DNA from: Antedon mediterranea
Taxonomy: Eukaryota > Echinodermata > Crinoidea > Comatulida > Antedonidae
DNA: 64,000 nt
Direction: 5' to 3'
NCBI RefSeq assembly: GCF_964355755.1
Contig: NC_092675.1
Coordinates: 7,350,312 to 7,414,311, forward strand
In this document: positions 14,882 to 58,796 of the stretch, piece by piece
Numbering within the stretch: the first letter of the stretch is position 1
How the letters are laid out: every line of letters starts with the position of its first letter
The notes under the pieces: model-generated
The model's database searches: none
The model's input: only the letters and a program-made list of their open reading frames with translations
What the model was told of the DNA's origin: nothing
Program-made: the position numbers and the translations under genes

Positions 14882-15021
14882 AAGCTCAGTCTACAATATC
14901 AAACTAATGATGTGCCCAAATATGTTAGTGATATGTCCAGATATGGTAGTGATATGACATCATCATGTCCATAAATGAGCACATCACATCATCATAAACT
15001 TTGATAGAGTAGACTGAGCTT
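14882..15021. mobile_element. MITE family A, copy 1
   Basis: Begins AAGCTCAGTCTACAATATC and ends GATAGAGTAGACTGAGCTT, near-perfect inverted ends. The middle has the family landmark GCCCAAATATG-TAGTGATATG. Eight further copies or pieces lie in the right half of the window. Confidence 0.85.
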
Positions 15022-17027: not shown

Positions 17028-17390
17028 GAAAACAGAGATTGATAGAAGGAATTGGCATGTGAAAGAACTGGACAGGGACCAAAAACAGAGATTGGTAGAA
17101 GGAATTGGTATGTGAAAGACCTGGACAGAGACCAAAAACAGAGATTGGTAGAAGGAATGGGTATGTGAAAGAACTGAACAGGGACCAAAAACAGAGATTG
17201 GTAGAAGGAATTGGTATGTGAAAAAACTGGACAGGGACCAAAAACAGAGATTGGTAGAAAGAATTGGTATGTGAAAGAACTGGACAGTGACCAAAAACAG
17301 AGATTGGTAGAAGGAATTGGTATGTGAAAGAACTGGACAGGGACCAAAAATAGAGATTGGTAAAAAGAATTGGTATGTGAAAGCAGTACG
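17028..17390. repeat. 53-bp minisatellite, nearly seven units
   Basis: Units start near 17028, 17081, 17134, 17187, 17240, 17293 and 17346, each containing CAGAGATTGGTAGAAGGAAT, then GGTATGTGAAAGAACTGGAC. Because 53 is not a multiple of three and the unit lacks reverse-strand stops, all three minus-strand frames are open across it. The resulting Phe/Pro/Ser-rich peptides are artefacts of the array. Confidence 0.93.
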
Positions 17391-19145: not shown

Positions 19146-20511
19146 TTGTTCAAATAAGGCAAGTAAAATTAAACTAAATACACCTAATTTGATTTCTGTA
19201 ATATTTATTATGATTTACAACTGCGTATGTAATGATAAATATCAATTCCTGTGTGGGCTGTTTAAGTGATTTTTAACATATTTCACATTTGATGATATTT
19301 GATTTCTGTATAAATTGAGATGTTAAAATAATCTAGCCGGATTCCCAACTGCGCATGTCTACAATGTCTCTTAAAATCGATCGTTTTAAATTGAAATTGT
19401 TAACATTTGCAAAAGTGTTTGGCTTGTTAGGAAAGTGTGTATTTTCCAATGATAGAATAAAACACTCGTACAAATTGATCTTAGTCGTCTGGGCAACGAT
19501 GAACTGTTTGCAAAATTTGGAAATCAAGTGAAAATAAATTGGCTATTTTATTTTTGTCTCCTCGGTTGGTCGGAACAGTGCCAAATAGGAAGTGCCTTGA
19601 GATACTGATTTGCCCTTCCTTTCAAATCTTTGACTAGCATATAATAACGAGAAAAACTTTACTTGAACAACATTTAAAGCGCTCTGGTAGAGGAAACTAA
19701 TAACATTTTATGCCAAGTTTTTGTTAGTGGAATACAGTTGGTGTTCTTGTTTCAAGCAGATTAATTATAAAGGTAATATTTACTATATTTATTTGTAATC
19801 ATATTTTTCAATCTAATTATTCTACCACATATCTTTTTTTAAATATTATTTTTGTTTTATTATTTATATTCATACTTTGTTATATTGTTTCTTATAATTA
19901 AAATTAATAATGAAAATGTTGTGATTAGGCCTAAGTAAAAATGTATTTAAATGTTGCTGAACACCTTGTGGATCTTAAAGCAAACTTATAAAATTATCAT
20001 TGAATTATAATTAAATCTACAAATAATTTATTTTTTGATTTTTACTTTGATTTAAAACACCCTCGTATCGTTTCCTACATGCTTGTTTTATCAGACAAAC
20101 GTCTATCCCTTCCTAAGAGGTATAAATATGATTAAAAGTTCGTAGATGAGTATTGTCAATGTTAAACTGTAGGCCACTGCATTTTCAAATGAACTATGTC
20201 TGTTTTAAAGGACTTTAGACCTACATTGCATTTACCCTGGTTAATCATAAACCGCTGAGGGTCATATTCGATAATCGGAAGCCAACCTGAATATTGAAAA
20301 TGAGTTAGTTTTAAACTATAAATACATTTCCGGCACCCATCTTGCAGAGCGGATATCCAGTACCATTGACAACCATTAACAGCCAATTAACTTCAATAAT
20401 GTATCAATTAATTCATTCAGATTAAAGAAAGTGTGACGTCCAACCAACGTGTCTTGAGTGTCTGCAGAATTTCATATGTCATGATATTTCTACATTTGTT
20501 TTTATTTTTAG
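18906..20511. other. Upstream region of the peptide gene
   Basis: Contains an (ATTT)n microsatellite at 19113-19147. The acceptor at 20510-20511 directly before the start codon implies a non-coding first exon upstream. One candidate donor is ATAAAG|GTAATA at 19772|19773. No firm promoter element is identified. Confidence 0.45.
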
Positions 20512-20518
20512 GTTATTC

Positions 20519-20660
20519 ATGATGCGTAATACACTTTCGGTCTATGCTTGTATTTTCGTCGTATGTCTGACGGTTTTTTCGGATGAATGTTGGGCGATTA
20601 ACTACTTCCAGAGGGTGATTGTTCCTCGTCGAATGAAATACCATCGTTATGGCAATCACG
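20519..20660 (+). CDS. Secreted peptide precursor, exon 1 (signal peptide and basic segment)
   Basis: Exon 1 codes residues 1-47. A T-rich acceptor (TTTTTAG, ending 20511) precedes tandem start codons at 20519 and 20522. Residues 1-26 are a signal peptide (MMRNTLSVYACIFVVCLTVF, then SDECWA). The following mature segment is very basic: INYFQRVIVPRRMKYHRYG. The exon ends in CACG|GTAGGA; reading on would run into a C-run and then a stop. One base of a Gly codon is left over, and exon 2 at 23915 supplies GT. Total precursor is 91 residues. Dibasic sites at R37R38, R50R51 and R56K57 suggest prohormone cleavage. I do not recognise the family. Antimicrobial or neuropeptide roles are both possible inferences. 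Confidence 0.72.
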
Positions 20661-23600
20661 GTAGGAAAATAGACTGTAAAGACATTCATTGTTCTATTCT
20701 AGATTTCGTCATTAATGTCACCCCCCCCCCCCCCCGCAACTTCATTCTCCTTTCCCGGCTATAGATGTTGACTAAGAAGCACATATGATCTTTATCAAAG
20801 CAACTTCGCTATTTATATTTAAAAGCATAGGCCTAAACATAGAAGAACATGAAATTTGGTTTTCACATGCTTAAAAATTGAATCATTTTAGGCGATATTG
20901 TTGTAAGGTAGGCCTAAACAAATTTACTGATACAAACATAATAGAATAATAATAAATATTAAAATAAAATAATATATTAGATAAACCCGCTGAATTCACT
21001 TTGAAAATGAACAGTTTTGTTATTTTCTACATCGTTTTATTTCAATAGACTATACAAAATGTATATATAAAGCAATGGCTTATTGTTTGACAAAGCTTAC
21101 CATCGACGTTATAACCATAACACGAATTATAAAGCAAACAATATTATTAAAAAATGTCTTAGTTATTATTCGTTTATTATGCAGTACAGATTACCTTATT
21201 TTCACTAACATCCATGGATATAATAGTATGGCTTTCACTATATATTAATAAGTTTAAACGCCTACACGCTCGCATTGTTGAACGGTTATTACCAATATAA
21301 AAATGGTTGAAAACATGTAATAATATATGTGTAATCATTATCTGGTTACTATATAAGTTAATTAAAAAATTTCTACAAATTATGCCCCCAATATATGATG
21401 TCTTTTTATACCATTATTACACGCCTACACATGGTTAACGTAATATAATCAGGTTAAATTTGTAGATGGTAATATGAACTATTAATCAAATGTATTAAGT
21501 CTGATATGATACCATAGGAAATTAGCTCCACATAGGCCTAGTTTAGATATAATAGGGTTATAGGCGGTTTTGCCTTTCATATATACACAAATAAACATAT
21601 CAAAACATTATTTTTTCTTTTGAAGTTTCATTTCGATTGTAGGCCTAAAATAACTATGTTAATGTCAATTATTTATTTATTGCACGTGACAAGTGGTTTA
21701 TGTACCGTATGCCTTTTCGAATGTATGTAATCAATATTGTGTTAACATTACAGTATATAGAAATAAAGCTAGGTAGCGATCCATATCTTTATTTTACTAA
21801 TTCTTTATCCAGATTTGACTTTCATATTATCAAACAATAAAGCTAAACTTAAAATCCTGAAAAAAAACTATGCTTTCTCTTTACGTATGTCAACGGGGGA
21901 CCGTAATGTTGGGAAAGGGGATCGTAATTAGGTATGCCTGCTGGATACCATCCCCCATCAAACATGCGCTGCACTAAGTAGGCCTACAAGGAGGGGAGTC
22001 TTAAACGCACAGATTGTGGTATTGTTTACGTAGTTTAACCGTTCGACCACTCAACTTTACTAAAAATAAAGCCTTCATATGATGCCCCTTATTCGTGTTT
22101 AACCTTTCAAAGGTGAAGGTCATTGCCGCTTATGTTCAATAATAATGATTTATGTTACAGATGAATCTGTTCAATCCAGAAATATAAATCTAAATCAAAT
22201 GTCCTTAGATAGACCCCATACAATGTCCAATAAAATAACTTGTAAATCCTCAAAAAATGAAAACGAATAAATTAATGTAAATAAATATGTTATTTATTAG
22301 TAAAAATGAAAATTTAATTCATAACAAAGGCAAATGTATACCGTTAAGAAAGCGGACTCGTTTTAAAAGGATTTTATTTGGGAAAATATCATAGCCCGCG
22401 GATGTTTAATTAAACGGACGAACTGATTGCTTTGAATTTGTTTTAAAAAACACTATATTTTGTTACTATTGTAAGTAATTAAAATGGAAATTTTGAATCG
22501 TAATTAATACTATGTGTACGACGATAGTAGATGATTACATCATTCAAACGAAAAGTATTTCCTATTTATTTGCCTAAAGGTATCAGCGCATGCGCATTCA
22601 CTAAGTTGAGCCGTAGTCTGATGAGGAAAGTGATTGATGTGGGTGATAATTAAGATATTCATTCTGATGAGAATTATTTACAATTTGAACGATAACAATT
22701 ATGGTGAAAGCGAGAACGTTATGGTGATGAACAAGATATCTAAGGATGAATGAATTAATGTAACACTAGGATCATGATGAGAAAGAAACTGTGACATTGA
22801 GTCGGGCTGTTCCGAGTAAAGGGAATGATTAACTAATGAGTTATTTTAAATAAACGTTTCACTTTTCTTTATCAATTGTGATTTTCTTACTGATATTTGG
22901 GCATGGCCCATGGTGTAAACTTTAACTTTCTTCTTGGATTTACTCCCTCGTATCACTAATAATATGGTCCCGTAGGCCTATACTAACGTTTTATTAATTT
23001 ATTATCTTTTAAACTATCATTCATAGGCCTATATCGGCATGATCAAAATCATATATCTCACTATCTTCAATTGATTAACACTATACATCCTACCACTAAA
23101 AAATAAAAAAATAAAATAAAAAATCAAATACAAAAAACCAACGAATTAGCTATAACTGAACGATAAGATGTTTAGTAGTAGACCTCTTTAATCAAGATTC
23201 TTTTTTTTATATATTATACTTTAGGCCTACTGGCTACCATTTTTATTATGTAATACATTATTTAATTAGGCCTAATCAACACATTTACATATTTTAATAT
23301 TAAAAACTCTACGACATTGATTTGTGGCGTAAGGCGATAATATAATAGACACAGATTATACACATACTTATTAACAATTCACACTTCTAATTTAAGGTGT
23401 AGGCCTATTATTACCCTTTTTATTAGTCACCTTGTTCAGTCTCATACATTTGTCCGTTTTAAGCACTTTAGAACATAACAAATCCAAGTACAATAGTACA
23501 CTTGTGTATCTTAGACCATGGACCTATACATTAGATAGGTCCATGCTTACACCATGGAGCCATAATTAGATAGCTCCATGCTTTCACAATGTACTTGGTT

Positions 23601-34330: not shown

Positions 34331-34581
34331 CACTGAACACAGCTTAAGCATGTGCTCTAGAATAAAACGTAAGTATAACGATTTTATTCAGACAAATAGT
34401 GTATTCGATCATAAAAACAAATGCATGTAATCTATAGAGATCAGATGAACATTGTGATAATAACGATATTTTTCGATAATGACCATGCAAATACAATGCA
34501 TCGCCAATCATATCTGTACATACATTTTTCGAATCGGCGTAAATTGGAATTGTCCTGTCAAAAATGGTAAGTTTGTTCTTA

Positions 34582-35905: not shown

Positions 35906-36390
35906 ATCTAGGCCTATAGTATCTTTACTAGACAACGCAGTGGGATCAGCTGCACTACTTCGAACAGCTTAGCGTTCTCAAGCTAAGTTAATTAGTCAGA
36001 CGTTTTGTCCTACTCTGTGTACTTGTAGGGTCTACTTAAAGAAAAAACATGAAAAATTAAGAATAATAAAATCAGACTTTGAATAGCCCACTTTGTAATT
36101 TTAACAAAGTGAATCACTTTCGGCCTCACAGTTATGTATATCACCATTTTATTTATATGGTGCTTTTAACAAAGCACATAAATCCCTAAAACTTTACAAA
36201 AAAAGCTTAAGAAAAACAATTAAAAAATGAAACAAACTATCAGGTCTGTGCTTGACCAAGGACACATCACCGGGTATTCACTTGGTCATCTCACCATTTT
36301 ACCATAATTAATATTAATTCTTTTTTCCCCTCAGATTGCTTAAACTATCGGTTAAGGCTTACATAGCTTAGAAAATAGTTTCAGTGCAAA

Positions 36391-37208
36391 ATGAAGGTAT
36401 GTTTCAAATGTTGAAATTATAACTCCCACAAGAACTCGATGAAAACTGTGCGATGAATTAGCGAAAAAAATTAATAATTATATAAAAAAAAAACAATACA
36501 ATGGTTATTACAACCATCTCGTTGATCAATCACTCCAACCCATCCTTCTCACACCCTTATTCTTTTTGTTAACTTTTTTTTAGCAATCTGAATTTTATGC
36601 CTTTTGGATGTGTTTTCTACTATTTATACCTTCTTATTTTTGTTTTTTGTATTTTGTTGTCTATAGTTTTGCTTTGAATATGCTTAGTCCTCTAAGCTGT
36701 GACCTGGGATGTTTGTTACATTTTTTAAATTTGAAATATCATATTCGTTTAGGAACATTATTTATGAGAATATTGGAGAAGAAAAAGTAGAGTTAAATTA
36801 GGAATTGTCAGATCATAGATTATCTTCTTTAACGTTTCTATTTATTTACAGATTCTCGTTATCATTCCAATTATTCTGGCAGTTATCACAGCATCACTTG
36901 CCGAAAAAGAACGGTGTAACGTCGTTGCAAAAAGCTGGGTTACATGTACATCGAGTAACGACTTTATTCAAAAAGGAGAAGTCGAAACAACTCTTAACTA
37001 TGCGGTAAAGATTGATAAAGCTGACGTTGGACCGCTGGTTTGTTGTAAAACACAGAGTTGCAAGGAGAAAAGTTGCAGATACGCAGCGTCAAAGTGCTCG
37101 TATTATTCTTTTACCAACCAAGTGGCATGGAACAACTCGAACGCTAAGCCGCAAATTAAATGCTATTCCATGGGAGCTATATCTATTTCTTGGGAACATT
37201 TTGAATAA
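36391..37208 (+). CDS. Small secreted cysteine-rich protein, two exons (120 aa)
   Basis: Exon 1 contributes only ATGAAG (36391-36396) before a consensus donor AAG|GTATGT. The intron (36397-36851, 455 bp) ends TTATTTACAG. Exon 2 (36852-37208) continues in frame for 118 codons to TAA. The N-terminus, MKILVIIPIILAVITASLA, is a signal peptide with cleavage near Ala19. The mature chain has eight cysteines at 24, 34, 66, 67, 72, 77, 84 and 106 (spacing C-x9-C-x31-CC-x4-C-x4-C-x6-C-x21-C), room for four disulfides, and one N-glycosylation sequon at N96. An acceptor-like CCCCTCAG at 36328-36335 suggests an upstream 5' UTR exon; AATAAA is at 37333-37338. I do not recognise the fold. The even frame across the splice, the signal peptide and the stop placement make it a real gene. 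Confidence 0.82.
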
Positions 37209-37332
37209 ACCACTAAATAGAATTATGCACTGTACAATTAATTACTGATCTATTCTTTGATTTATATTATACAGTAATAATAAGTAAGCACATCATAAAA
37301 CAGTTTTTGCTACAACAAAGACATGATATTAG

Positions 37333-37338
37333 AATAAA
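37333..37338 (+). terminator. Candidate polyadenylation signal of the Cys-rich gene
   Basis: AATAAA 125 nt downstream of the stop codon; the first canonical hexamer after the gene. Confidence 0.55.
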
Positions 37339-37428
37339 AATTCCTACTGCTACTGCTAATACTGCGTCGAGCTTGCTAAAAAAATTCTTAACTATACTTA
37401 ATATAACAAAAGAGGTTTTAGATATGTA

Positions 37429-37566
37429 AAGCTCTGTCTACACTATCACCCTTTATGTGAAAAAATGTGATGTGTCATATCACTACCATATTTGGGCATA
37501 TAACTACTATTATTTGGGCACATTACACTCGTTTGTCAAACTAATTTGATAGTGCAGACAGAGCTT
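37429..37566. mobile_element. MITE family A, copy 2
   Basis: AAGCTCTGTCTACACTATC at the left; GATAGTGCAGACAGAGCTT at the right. TTT/AAT-rich flanks. Confidence 0.85.
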
Positions 37567-38490
37567 TAATAATATTGGGCGAATTAATTTATATAAAAAA
37601 AGTATTTTAACGCTCCATAAGCCACTAGACAAGAGATGGAGCACAGACTGTAAAGAAAATAATTGTACTGTATTAGGCCTATGTTAAGAAAGTTTTAGAG
37701 ATGCACTCATGATAATTATATTCGTATGTGATACTGTAATTAAGAAAGACTATAATTATAAAATAGCTCCTCAATTTAATGTTTAGTAGTGAAAACAAAT
37801 TTATTAGACACAATTGTTACAAATTCAAAAGCAGCTAATGAAAATTAAAAAAACACCCCATAAATAAATGATGTGTGCGATGTTTCATGGTTTTTAAATA
37901 ATACTTTTTTTAAAATTATAAATAATACCTGGTCGATTTAAGCTTCAATCAACATGTTGAAAAGAAAAGTGTGAGGATCAAACTGATTAGAAATGTCAAT
38001 GACATGCCACATATAGAAGACGTTATGTTATGGCGCTAGTTACTACTTGTATTCATGAATGTCTAAGAATGATTACGTAACGTATGACTTGGTGTAGACG
38101 AGATCTCAATTGTTCGGCGATATGACGTCATCGTTGTTGTTGAATGATAAATTGAACGCCACAATCATATTCATAATGGTTAGTCAATTTCTTATTTGTT
38201 TTAAAACTATATCCAATCAAAGAAAAGTACTGTATAATCAATTGAAATCAACACCGTCAAATATTTTTTTGCGAAAACGGCGTTTCATGCAAGAAATTTT
38301 GTAGAGTGCGCCCTCTCACGACTTAAGCTATTACGTCATATGATTTGTTATTTTTCCATGAACTTGCAAAAAACATATGAACGAAGCTGTGCAACATTTC
38401 TACAAAAATACCAGGCTTTCTATTTGATTTTTCATAATGAATCTAGGAAATTGAAGTGAGTATAAGTAGTTTAGACAGATCCTAATCCAC
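37567..38490. other. Intergenic stretch
   Basis: No gene recognised. The 64-codon frame at 38110-38304 has no splice context or motif. Confidence 0.55.
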
Positions 38491-38858
38491 TAGGCCTAGC
38501 TGTTGTTAACTTTTTCAGTATTTAGCCAGGATAAGTTTAAAGTTTAGTTAGGCCTGGCCCTACACTCTAGCTAGCTAGGCTAGGCCTAGCTAGTAGCCTT
38601 AGGCCTAGTCTAGGCTAGGTAGGCCTACTAGCCTAGGCTAGGTAGGCCTACTAGCCTAGCTAGGCCTAGGCCTAACTAGATATGATGGTAGGTGGGCCTA
38701 GCTAGCCTCTAGGCCTAGTAGGCTAGGCCTAGTAGCTAGTAGGCTACCTTTTGAGTAGTACTAGTAGAGGGTAGGCCTAGCCTGGCCCTAGCCTAGGCCT
38801 ATTTATTATTAATCTAGGCCTAGCCGGGACTAGGCCTAGTAGCTAGGCTAGGCCCTAT
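38491..38858. repeat. CTAGGCCTAG-rich block
   Basis: About 370 bp composed largely of overlapping TAGGCCTA, CTAGGCTAG, AGCTAG and TAGTAG words with no fixed period. It is the densest patch of the TAGGCCTA palindrome that is scattered singly over the window. It lies just upstream of the candidate ABCA promoter. Confidence 0.85.
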
Positions 38859-38988
38859 TTTTAGGTAGATCACATTCTTTTGTTCGGACGTATAGTAAAT
38901 TCCTTCAGTACACGAGTACTTTCAAACAATCTGATTGGATAATATAATTACTTCTAGTTCTACATAATATGACGTGAGCGAAATAGGC

Positions 38989-53830: not shown

Positions 53831-54141
53831 CAAGGATCACTCCATTCAAATGTGGAGGCAATCTGGACCACGGTCTCAATTTTGGACTGCTTTTTAGTAA
53901 AATTTTCAGACCTGCTAGTGTTAAAAGATAGCACAGAATTTTCAAAAGCCGGCATTTGTATTTAAGGATGTCTCATGTTATTATATGTGTTATATATTAC
54001 TATAAACCTTTTCCCTACTCTCTGCTTTTCTCTTCGGCCTAAAAAATATCTAGACCCATCCACAAGGAGACTTGGCTTTATAAACTAAAGATGATGCCTT
54101 GTATGTTTTTTCCATTCTTTTTCCAATTTTTATTTGTGCAG

Positions 54142-54339
54142 ATGATTGATATAATTGGGAGTGGAGAATACAAAACTATAGCATGCAATGCTACTGCTCT
54201 TCAGACTCTTTTGGATATTTCTGATCCTACTCTCCTGGCGGAAACAAAAAATGAACTCTGCGTTCTTACTACCGACGATTGGAATAAACTCGGAGAAGAT
54301 ATTGTTCAAAATCTTGATTGGAGTCAAATTATTGGTGGA
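54142..54339 (+). CDS. ABCA1-like: ABCA-like, coding exon 6 (repeat module b, copy 1)
   Basis: 66 codons, phase 0 at both ends, from TGTGCAG to GGTGGA|GTAAGT. Contains KTIACNATALQTLLDISDPT and NELCVLTTDDW. Same length as exon 9 and similar to it (CN-A/T-TAL, D-I/V-S/T-DP, LC-x-LTD). Confidence 0.92.
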
Positions 54340-54657
54340 GTAAGTATGCATAGTGGCAGCTTATAAATAGAGTATTAAAATATTGACAATAGCCAATGTA
54401 AATAATAGAGGATTAGTTAATAATGAATTGAGATTTAATGTAGTCGTTTATTGGCTTGGTTCCGGTTTCCCTCACAATTTACTCATACAATTAAATCAAC
54501 TTTTTATTTATTCAATACCAGACTAGAGAAAGTAATGGGAATTTCCATTGTTTAAGTTTGACATGTTACAATTCTAATATTGCAAACATTGAATATGTAT
54601 TCTTATATTGTATAATACATTAGAATCCCCAGTAACCTTGCCTTGGACACACTGTTA

Positions 54658-54735
54658 TTTAAGAGTTAACCCCATCCCCATAAAAGAGGTATTTAAGAGT
54701 TAACCCCATCCCCATAAAAGAGGACACTTTTCTGG
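54658..54735. repeat. Two tandem 35-bp units (ABCA intron 6)
   Basis: TTTAAGAGTTAACCCCATCC followed by CCATAAAAGAGG occurs twice in direct succession. Confidence 0.88.
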
Positions 54736-54890
54736 CTCCTGAAGTTCAATCCCTAAATATGGGTACTAGCTACTATATCCATTTTATATATTTTTTAATA
54801 CAAGTACCATTAACACCTTGAAATATAAAGTTTAGAGTTTCACTCTACATAATGGTCAAAATAATGATAACATTCATTGGTTTGTTGCAG

Positions 54891-55002
54891 GCTGGGAATT
54901 TAAGTCCATCTAACTTTGATCCGTCATCATATTCAAGTCTTGATCCTGAACAGTTAGAAAAAATAACCAAACAATTACAGGATGCTGGAGTAACTGACAT
55001 TG
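54891..55002 (+). CDS. ABCA1-like: ABCA-like, coding exon 7 (linker between the two modules)
   Basis: Acceptor TTTGTTGCAG; reads AGNLSPSNFDPSSYSSLDPE, then QLEKITKQLQDAGVTDI. Ser/Pro-rich with a short helix. Ends one base into a Gly codon (ATTG|GTAAAT). Confidence 0.88.
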
Positions 55003-55460
55003 GTAAATATGTGCAGTAGAACTCGTATTGGCACATTCAATACCCAAAATAGCATGTCCCCTGAATAGGAGTTGGCTGTATTGCTTAAATATATATTCCT
55101 TCTAATTTGTGTGAATATTAAGATAGATATTTACAAAAAAATCATTGCTATTAATGTGTATAATTCATTTTATTAAAACTTCACTGTATTTTATTTGGTT
55201 TTTGTAATATTTTAAATTATCAATTTATCAAATTATTATTTTTTTAAATATGTTTTATAGAATTATTTTGAGTAGTCCTTGCAAATTCACACAACCTCTA
55301 TCTCTGTTTTCTAGTTGCCTCTCTAGTTTTAGTAACTATGGATGTTACAGTTCAAACCATTATTTTCAATAATGGTTTGAAATGTTAGAGTGTGATTTTT
55401 TTAGATTTGAAAATAATTACAATGACATGTGTTTTAATATTTAAATCTCTTTGTTTTCAG

Positions 55461-55585
55461 GTGATTTTCCTTTAAGCAGTGTGATCAATGATCCTACAAA
55501 GTTGAAAACATTTTTAGACCAAAACATTTCACTGTCTGAAGGAGCAACCAACACTTTGCTAGATTCAACAACCTCTTTGCAAGAG
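55461..55585 (+). CDS. ABCA1-like: ABCA-like, coding exon 8 (repeat module a, copy 2)
   Basis: Acceptor TTGTTTTCAG; reads GDFPLSSVINDPTKLKTFLD and QNISLSEGATNTLLDS to GAG|GTAAGA. Paralogue of exon 5 with the same phases (starts phase 1, ends phase 0). Confidence 0.9.
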
Positions 55586-56047
55586 GTAAGAGTCACTGAG
55601 AATTGTTTATTCCATCAAAATGATTTTATTAATTTTATTTATTTAAATAACAATAATAACAACAATTCAAAGCATTAAACGAGTCCTTATATATTCATAT
55701 TGTGTGAAATATTTCAATTTATATTTTTGTGGATAGAAATTTTTACTGCAAAAAAGTTTTTTGTCTATATCTCAATTCTGTTGCCTATTTTATTATTCTG
55801 AAATTATTGGTTGTTTTTACATTGTTACTTAAAACATAATAAGTGCATTAGACTTAATAAATGTATTGTTACTTTGTTTATTAATTTTCCACACACAAAA
55901 TATAATAAATGTAAGTCAAAATATAAATTGTACAAAAGTAAAATATAGATGGAAACCAAAATAAGTTTGACAACAAACGTTAGGGTATGATCATCTGTTA
56001 CAATGATAGTTACAAAATAATAATATACTTGTTTTTTTTTTCTCTAG

Positions 56048-56245
56048 TTGCAACTTCTGTCTGAGGGCAGTCTAATGAGGCCTATCGTGTGCAATACAAC
56101 CGCGCTGCGTAATTATGTGGACGTTACTGATCCCGCATCATTGCAGACGCTCAGTGACTCATTGTGTAATTTGACGGACGCTCAGTTAGATGAACTTTCT
56201 CGAGCAGTTAGCGAACAGGTTAATGCAACCACTCTGCTAAAACTT
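56048..56245 (+). CDS. ABCA1-like: ABCA-like, coding exon 9 (repeat module b, copy 2)
   Basis: Acceptor TCTCTAG; 66 codons, LQLLSEGSLMRPIVCNTTAL through DVTDPASLQTLSDSLCNLTD to CTT|GTAAGT. The same length and phases as exon 6, with conserved cysteines and glycosylation sites. Confidence 0.92.
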
Positions 56246-57593
56246 GTAAGTTTAGATTTTTTTCAATGTCTAATTATTTTAAAGAAAAAGCTGAATGCTG
56301 TTGCTGAGCCCATCATACTACAGTATATTTTTAAAATAGACCTATACGATTTTGTGTTTAATGTACTGGCAATCCTGATTAAGATAAATTCTCACTCAAA
56401 TTATAATCTTTATTTTCATGGTACATCCATGGACATATCCTGGTCCAATTACAGTAGTAAGCTTTTATTTCAAGGCTGGTAGACAAAGTAGACGGTAATT
56501 AACAGACTGTGACGTGACGGTGTGTACACATTCCACAACCGTCACGGCCTGATAAATTACCATCTTTTACGATACGATATGATAGTATTTATTGTCATTT
56601 GTTGACAAGGTACAAATGAAATTTGATTTATACTATCCCAAAATGAAAGACAGGGTATATTGCCATCATGTGCAATAAATAAACTACCATAGTCTTTATA
56701 ATTGGGTTCATTTCATCTGACCAAATACTCTACACCCTGATGCAAAGCTACTCCACAATTATTTAATTTATATAAAAATTTATTTCTTTCATTTTATATA
56801 CAAATTATTGACAAAACAGCAAGATAAAAAAACACAAAGATCATTGAGATTCACAAGATAGACATATCCTGTTTGTCTGCATTTCCTAATGTAATCTGTT
56901 GGTTAAATAGTGGCTTAGATAACAATTTAACCAGGAACATAAGATAAACCACAACGCTATTAAACTTGAATTGTAGTTACTTGTGGTTAAATTTTAATGT
57001 GGTACAGTATACTTAAATCTACAGTGCATTTTTTATATTAATGTTTGTTAATAATAACTTTAAGTAGAGTAATTTGATATGTTACTGTTATTTAGAGTGG
57101 GTACCAATGTACAATAGACCTACTGAAGCAGTGCTCAATATGTTGTTCATCTCAATGATATTTTGGCACATATACTTTATATAGTATTAAACTATTCAAA
57201 CTATATAGACCTATCCTCTGTACACTCCAACATCAACAAGGAATCCACAACATTTTTAGGATTCGGCCAAGTAGCCTTTTGGCAATTAATATCTAATTAC
57301 AAAACGCATTATGCAACACTTAACTTTTTTATGGCATACAGAATATGTGTAAAATACAGCGTGTCTACGACATTGAAAGCATAAATTTCAAATTTTCACT
57401 TTGAATACAAAATTTCATTTTCCAATCTATTGGTTTTTTTCTGTAAACATTTTTTCCCTAGAGATAAAGGGTTGGGCCTAAATGTGTTATTCAAATTCAA
57501 AACCATATCTATTTACACATTTCATAGGAAATCATATAATCCACACATATACAGTACATTTCTAATTCTATATCCTTTTACATTTTTTTATAG

Positions 57594-57659
57594 TTTAATG
57601 TTACGGATACCGAATCTGCTCGTCGGCTTATTGATGAACTTACAGACGTCGCAAGAGAG
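57594..57659 (+). CDS. ABCA1-like: ABCA-like, coding exon 10
   Basis: A 22-codon exon after TTTTTTATAG: FNVTDTESARRLIDELTDVA, RE, then GAG|GTTTGT. Phase 0 at both ends. Confidence 0.8.
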
Positions 57660-57693
57660 GTTTGTCAGTTTCAGATTCAGTAAATTGGGCCAT

Positions 57694-57975
57694 TTTAATA
57701 TGATGTATTTTAATGATTAGAACTCCTCCTTTGTGAAACCTCTATTCAGGGCCATTATTCCTGTTAAAACAAGTAATAGTGTAATATATGTTCATACACT
57801 ATGGAAAACCGGGGATATTGTGCAATTTTAATATATGATGTATTTAAATTATTAGTGCATTTACTACAGTAAAACTCCTTTGGGACACCTATTCAGTGCC
57901 ATATTTCTTTTCAAACTAACAAGTAATATTGTAATATATGTTTAAACACTACGGAAAACCGGGGACATCCTGATT
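57694..57975. repeat. Two tandem units of about 140 bp (ABCA intron 10)
   Basis: Both have TGATGTATTT, AACTCCT-TTG, CTATTCAG, AACAAGTAATA, TGTAATATATGTT and GGAAAACCGGGGA in the same order. Confidence 0.8.
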
Positions 57976-58103
57976 TTTTTCTGGTAAATGGAGGACGCCC
58001 TAACATATACCATCCGCCCTTCTAATCAACATCGTAGCTTCTTCCTTGCTTGCTTAATACATTTTTCTTCCCTACTTTTCCCCCTTTTTTTATTGTTTAT
58101 TAG

Positions 58104-58347
58104 ATTCAAGATCTTAAAAGTATAGAGAGCTACATCCAAGACATACAAGACCAGCTGAGCAACAAAGATGTACAGACACTTGTGTGCGGTGGAAGTGGTG
58201 ACAATGACCTATTGAAGGGTAAAGTGGACGCGCAACATGAAGGGGGACTGGATGGTGGAGAGAGCAGAGTATCAGGCAATGCGCAATCTCCGGAAGATAG
58301 CTGCAGTTTAAGCTCGTTCAACTTCAGCAATGCCCTTGATAATTATG
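58104..58347 (+). CDS. ABCA1-like: ABCA-like, coding exon 11
   Basis: Acceptor TTTATTAG; reads IQDLKSIESYIQDIQDQLSN, then DVQTLVCGGSGD, matching the ABCA1 region with the conserved IVCG. A Gly/Asp/Ser-rich variable loop follows, then EDSCSLSSFNFSNALDN. Donor TATG|GTAATT leaves one base. Confidence 0.9.
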
Positions 58348-58796
58348 GTAATTATCTTACTCGCCCTCGAAGGAGGAAATGCGAGAATTTAGCCTCCAGG
58401 TCTTGCTGTGTATTTAATAATTAGATTCTACTTTTTAAAATCTAGTTTATGTGGTGTATGTTATGTATCTCAAACACTATTGATTTGATCTATAAAAGAT
58501 ATTTAGATATTCCAACCTGTACAATGTACAGCTCTATTTAAATTTGGAGTTTAATATCATTTTCAACGTTTCTATAGTAGAATAGTGGTATTTTTTTTAG
58601 AGTTAGGCTCCGACAAAGTCAACAAGTATACTGTATACACTTTTAAAATAATATTTATTTAAATAAGTTTATATGATCAACACTAATAAATATGTAGCGA
58701 CACAAAAAGAAATGCATGCTTAACATATGTATAAACATTTGTACAGTACTGTATATACATTATATATTAAAAATATGGTAAAGTAAGAGTAAGGTA

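Follow-up and report, generated by a model that had tools for sequence, protein, structure and literature searches.

A probable gene for a small secreted protein with eight cysteines and a separate short start exon

Introduction

Does an open frame without a start codon belong to a gene, and if so, where would its translation begin? The question arises at a locus in a 64-kb stretch of DNA (C6:7350312-7414311), here called the window, from a genome of 354 Mb in 18 contigs. A preliminary description had placed at this locus a gene for a small secreted protein with eight cysteines, whose first exon would code only two residues and whose other 118 codons would lie in an exon lacking a start codon.

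We find that the locus is best read as a real gene encoding a secreted protein, with a probability of roughly 0.72 as judged from the sequence. It is probably genuine but an ordinary orphan, predicted to encode one more small secreted cysteine-rich protein. In the following, this reading is weighed against a chance or decayed frame, a different first exon and a peptide hormone.

Results

Gene anatomy

The features of the locus are collected in Table 1. The sequence ATGAAG codes Met-Lys and is directly followed by a GTATGT donor, both read from the sequence, so the coding part of exon 1 is exactly as short as had been described. The stop-to-stop frame of exon 2 has no Met before the junction, which also agrees with the description. 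Joining 36396 to 36852 is in phase 0 and leaves 118 codons and TAA, so that the evenness of the frame across the splice stands too. The joined frame encodes a 120-residue precursor.

Table 1. Features at and around the locus, in window coordinates
Feature	Position	Strand	Basis or remark
Strong polypyrimidine tract and AG acceptor (ttcttttttcccctcag) 5′ of the start exon	36318..36334	+	score 10.06
Probable start exon, 62 bases: 56 bases of 5′UTR and ATG AAG	36335..36396	+	strong acceptor on one side, GTATGT donor on the other
In-frame TAG upstream of ATG	36376..36378	+	bars entry to the frame from further upstream via exon 36335-36396
Coding part of start exon, Met-Lys	36391..36396	+	sequence
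Phase-0 intron, 455 bases, GTATGT...TTTACAG	36397..36851	+	donor 4.71, acceptor 3.53
Interspersed repeat within intron	36570..36738	+	at least 11 matches, 81-87% identity, six contigs
Coding exon 2, 118 codons and TAA	36852..37208	+	open frame; single genomic DNA match
Rest of predicted signal peptide (residues 3-19)	36852..36902	+	inspection; predicted cleavage after Ala19
Predicted mature protein, 101 residues, 8 Cys, pI 8.4	36903..37205	+	translation
AATAAA, contains the stop codon TAA	37204..37209	+	sequence
Next AATAAA, alternative poly(A) signal	37333..37338	+	sequence
MITE-like element, 22-base inverted ends TAAAGCTCTGTCTACACTATCA	37427..37568	.	inverted repeat I2; many dispersed genomic copies

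The splice sites had been called consensus, which fits one of them better than the other. Scored with matrices based on general consensus tables, with no training on this genome, the donor lies in the top 0.7% of 7,128 GT sites, whereas the exon-2 acceptor (...TTTATTTACAG before ATT, at 36851/36852) is moderate and reaches only the top 2.4% of AG sites. A branch-site-like CTTTAAC lies at 36827-36833. The AATAAA that had been cited is present, but it overlaps the stop codon, and another stands further downstream. GC content reaches 0.40 in exon 2, while the upstream flank has 0.34, the intron 0.28 and the downstream flank 0.29.

A much stronger acceptor lies on the other side of the start codon. 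At 36334/36335, 56 bases before the ATG, TTCTTTTTTCCCCTCAG precedes ATTG with a score that only 2 of the 6,196 AG sites on both strands of the window reach, and it ranks second among the plus-strand acceptors of the window. Hence the preliminary exon 1 was right in its coding part but not in its extent, as the exon probably begins at 36335 and is 62 bases long rather than 6. The sole ATG of this exon is that at 36391, and together with the in-frame TAG this means that the frame would start at Met-Lys if the exon is used. Candidate donors for a further upstream 5′UTR exon lie at 34567 and 35399, neither of them favoured. The strong acceptor upstream of the ATG supports the reading as a real gene.

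Predicted protein

The signal peptide that had been proposed looks canonical by inspection, with MKILVIIPIILAVITASLA followed by EKER. The cleavage after Ala19 is our reading of the translation, while the rule in the simulation script placed it at residue 11-12. A simple hydropathy and cleavage rule, together with inspection, gives a putative N-terminal signal and neither a further membrane segment nor a GPI tail, which would suit a secreted soluble protein. The predicted mature protein has a charge of +2.85 and one N-glycosylation sequon, contains none of the dibasic sites KR, RR, KK and RK, and ends in HFE without a Gly for amidation.

The eight cysteines lie at precursor positions 24, 34, 66, 67, 72, 77, 84 and 106. 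Their spacings of 9, 31, 0, 4, 4, 6 and 21, that is C-x9-C-x31-CC-x4-C-x4-C-x6-C-x21-C, are those given earlier. A single-sequence AlphaFold2 model of the mature part had a mean pLDDT of 36.6 and was unusable.

Chance expectation of the architecture

The first rival is that no gene exists here and that exon 2 is open by chance or is the remnant of a gene whose decay does not yet show. We consider this unlikely. Long open frames are in themselves no rarity in this DNA: 25 frames in the window run from stop to stop over 100 codons or more, and inspection assigns several of these to mobile elements or tandem repeats. The moderate exon-2 acceptor also suits this rival. Against it stand the additional strong acceptor upstream of the ATG and the GC of the exon exceeding that of its flanks.

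Further counterevidence comes from simulation. The architecture was defined as an ATG with up to 12 further codons to a phase-0 donor, an intron of 50-3000 bases, an acceptor, at least 100 open codons and a signal-like start, and the null consisted of 3,419 simulated 64-kb strands from a first-order Markov model. With at least six mature cysteines in addition, the architecture appeared in none of the 3,419 strands. With any cysteine count, it appeared in one at thresholds as good as observed and in three at laxer ones. Because this null contains no mobile-element ORFs, the test is lenient towards the gene.

Real DNA was surveyed at the laxer thresholds over 164 kb on both strands. This gave 15 candidates for exon 2 with 100 or more codons (11 on the plus and 4 on the minus strand), of which 8 had an exon 1 (7 plus, 1 minus) and 3 a signal-like start. 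Only one of the 15, that at 36852-37208, combined all of these features with at least six cysteines. Of the other two with a signal-like start, one is a 7TM exon and the other a LINE reverse-transcriptase ORF.

Codon statistics

Codon usage leaves the rival without a gene some room. A codon score was trained on 15 kinase exons and compared with 27 leave-one-out kinase segments. Exon 2 scores +3.3 bits over 118 codons, or +0.028 bits per codon, and all but 2 of the 27 segments, which range from -0.002 to 0.34, exceed it. The window's 7TM exon has a score of -0.09, and forward frame +2 of the exon-2 DNA reaches 0.033, above the real frame. The whole stop-to-stop frame of exon 2 scores -0.004 and ranks ninth among 85 frames in the window.

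The synonymous-only score of exon 2 is 0.052; among 4,000 random chunks taken from the 164-kb region, 1.5% score as high. Two other frames, forward frame +2 at 0.059 and a reverse one at 0.083, exceed the real frame by this measure, and 4 of the 15 true kinase exons fall below zero. The codon statistics are thus equivocal and do not discriminate gene from non-gene. Taken with the GC contrast, the coding statistics lean to a gene without proving one. Of the preliminary claim of a real gene for a small secreted protein, the reading itself stands as the best one and gains the strong upstream acceptor, but it draws no decisive help from codon usage.

Copies and relatives

The lack of relatives in the collections searched is the remaining point in favour of a frame that is no gene. 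In the genome, exon 2 and the start-exon region each have one DNA match, which is the locus itself, so neither is recognised as a repeat. A DNA search with 36000-38000, in which the best 40 of 5,498 candidates were scored, gave at least 46 matches; of those listed, one is the locus and 45 are to the intron repeat or the downstream MITE-like element.

A protein search of the genome returned the gene itself and one chance match, on contig C7. This match (E = 1.58) was rejected as a paralogue; it is antisense to DDB1-like exons, which we take to belong to a DDB1 gene, and it is without the cysteines. The paralogues that the preliminary description had suggested looking for were not found by sequence in the genome, nor by a more sensitive search of the window with 50 kb on either side, where the best non-self phmmer match had E = 0.43. 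The cysteine pattern occurs there in three frames, namely the target and two others of 56 and 30 residues.

No Pfam family matches the protein at E up to 10, no NCBIfam match was found, and the mature part has no sequence match in the PDB. A PDB row for the precursor (PdxS, E = 0.34) starts inside the signal peptide and was taken as chance, as was one PHROGs row with E = 0.16. The phage and plasmid collections gave no match, and zero of the peptide-pattern matches in 53 viral and 33 prokaryote stretches were confirmed. Of the searched collections, all but Pfam and the PDB exclude animal sequence by design, and a lack of matches in them therefore says little about animal orthologues. The gene appears lineage-restricted, and in its own genome it was found once at the sensitivity used.

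Other features of the window and genome

The MITE-like element lies downstream of the gene and is not part of it, with genomic matches spanning about 37398-37576. Tandem repeats of 21-24 bases with related sequence occur at 14908, 41248, 49773 and 60253. A dense palindromic repeat block of the TAGGCCTA type occupies 38490-38867; sub-threshold microRNA rows of Rfam fall within this TAGGCC-rich block and were taken as chance, while nothing in the window passed the Rfam threshold. A 53-base tandem repeat at 17029-17383 has 6.7 copies and several open reverse frames.

A second orphan frame lies at 20426-20764 (+), in which a Met precedes a hydrophobic, signal-like stretch and a short mature part of basic character. 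No Pfam family passed the cut-off for it, and its single genomic match is itself. Exons at 54043-58424 (+) resemble, by our reading, the extracellular loop of an ABCA-type transporter. They gave no convincing Pfam or PDB match; Walker A motifs occur downstream on the same strand at 71521 and 84965, beyond the window in window coordinates. A rhodopsin-type receptor exon (PF00001) lies at 317-688, and similar receptor frames occur in the 50 kb upstream of the window, those at -38562 and -24715 being identical in the part shown. Kinase matches in the genome number at least 140, and with 127 of 891 candidates scored, all those listed are on contigs C1-C11. Eleven chromosomes are known from feather stars, Antedon among them. 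Searches of the genome with COX1 and with 20 residues of an Antedon peptide gave no match, the latter being uninformative at so short a length.

On contig C2, at about 14.92-14.97 Mb (L029 and L030), IGF-like and octinsulin-like exons lie 51 kb apart. They score 22.0 and 20.2 bits, against a Pfam cut-off of 23, with E of 0.097 and 0.34, and were named by reading their translations. The IGF-like exon has a long charged tail. If the genome has a single IGF, this would point to a crinoid or a hemichordate, although the search may miss copies. The layout on C2 fits the ambulacrarian arrangement given in the portion of PMC8286064 that was consulted.

Discussion

The start of translation

The large exon may be real but spliced to a different first exon, which would change the N-terminus. 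The scan for first exons covered up to 12 further codons and introns no longer than 3 kb, and such an exon could lie outside this range. It could also be the one-codon ATG at 34564-34566, followed by GTAAGT, which has the better donor (5.33 against 4.71) and likewise gives a signal-like start. On the other hand, the ATG at 36391 is the nearer of the two exon-1 candidates found by the scan. It gives Met-Lys, with the usual basic residue before the hydrophobic core, and stands behind a very strong acceptor. We therefore judge a different first exon improbable and retain the start at Met-Lys.

Comparison with known cysteine-rich families

The cysteine spacing of the predicted protein was compared with those of known families. 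The WAP four-disulfide core has the spacing C-x5-C-x5-CC-x3-C-x3,4-C, the plant-type eight-cysteine motif runs C-C-CC-CxC-C-C and Ly6/three-finger proteins end in CC-x3..5-CN. In the predicted protein, the WAP pattern is absent, no CxC follows the CC and the Ly6 end is absent. The Kazal, PLA2, beta-defensin and EGF spacings are absent as well.

Conotoxins with the CC-x4-C-x4-C framework are short peptides with four cysteines. The stretch CCKTQSCKEKSC has the same spacing as this alpha-conotoxin framework, but the protein carries four extra cysteines in a chain of 101 residues, and the match is probably a coincidence.

In insulins, the core spacing is CC-x3-C-x8-C in the A chain and C-x10..12-C in the B chain. 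Both are absent from the predicted protein, which also leaves the Pfam Insulin model unmatched at E up to 10. Octinsulin, an insulin-type peptide, shares eight cysteines with the mature part. According to the consulted portion of PMC8286064, it occurs in all ambulacrarians, in single copy in echinoderms and with two coding exons in Anneissia; it has KR convertase sites, and its sole coding intron is in phase 1 in the C domain. The predicted protein has no such sites, and its only proposed coding intron is in phase 0 after codon 2. Octinsulin identity was thus rejected on spacing, convertase sites and intron phase alike.

A second eight-cysteine comparison is AmedPCNP18, the precursor of a predicted neuropeptide from the crinoid Antedon. 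As described in the consulted portion of PMC9793003, it gives a putative amidated peptide of 60 residues with eight cysteines, in a set defined by a signal peptide and a peptide bounded by dibasic sites. By this description, it resembles our protein in its predicted secretion and in its cysteine number, but differs in its shorter, amidated and dibasic-defined peptide, as ours has 101 residues, no dibasic site and no C-terminal Gly.

Given these two eight-cysteine precedents, the protein might be a hormone or another secreted ligand, such as a divergent octinsulin or a crinoid neuropeptide like PCNP18, but this is highly improbable in view of the spacing, the intron phase, the lack of dibasic and amidation signals and the IGF-like and octinsulin-like exons already present on C2, which lie below the Pfam cut-off.

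Among antimicrobial peptides, periculin-1 of Hydra has eight cysteines, and the echinoderm strongylocins are cysteine-rich and cationic with a six-cysteine motif, as described in the consulted portion of PMC12466427. By these descriptions, both are cysteine-rich like the predicted protein, and periculin-1 also matches its cysteine number. The eight cysteines and the charge of +2.85 stand against the six-cysteine motif of the strongylocins, and the protein does not belong to them by this description.

Proposed product and its meaning

If the gene is real, translation would begin at position 36391, where the ATG stands close to the 3′ end of the probable 62-base exon that is otherwise 5′UTR. After transcription, splicing would link Met-Lys to the large exon in phase 0, and the signal peptide would be removed after Ala19. 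The presumed secreted product would be a mildly basic chain of 101 residues with four possible disulfides and one possible N-glycan. It may remain one soluble piece, because it lacks dibasic sites, a hydrophobic tail and a second membrane segment.

For a real gene, the likeliest role, though at somewhat less than even odds, would be that of an extracellular binding or defence effector of the body fluid, mucus or gut rather than of a hormone. This suggestion draws on the size and charge of the protein, its cysteine content and its lack of relatives. More tentatively, and with slightly lower odds, the protein might be the first-seen member of a clade-restricted secreted family. Its eight-cysteine framework would then be undescribed, its disulfide fold possibly new, and its separate short start exon the reason why it was overlooked.

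Animals have many orphan secreted proteins rich in cysteine, so the gene alone would be a modest finding. Its importance would grow if the fold proved new or a role in defence were shown. If real, the gene adds one apparently lineage-restricted secreted protein and shows how a separate short start-codon exon lets genes escape intron-blind scans.
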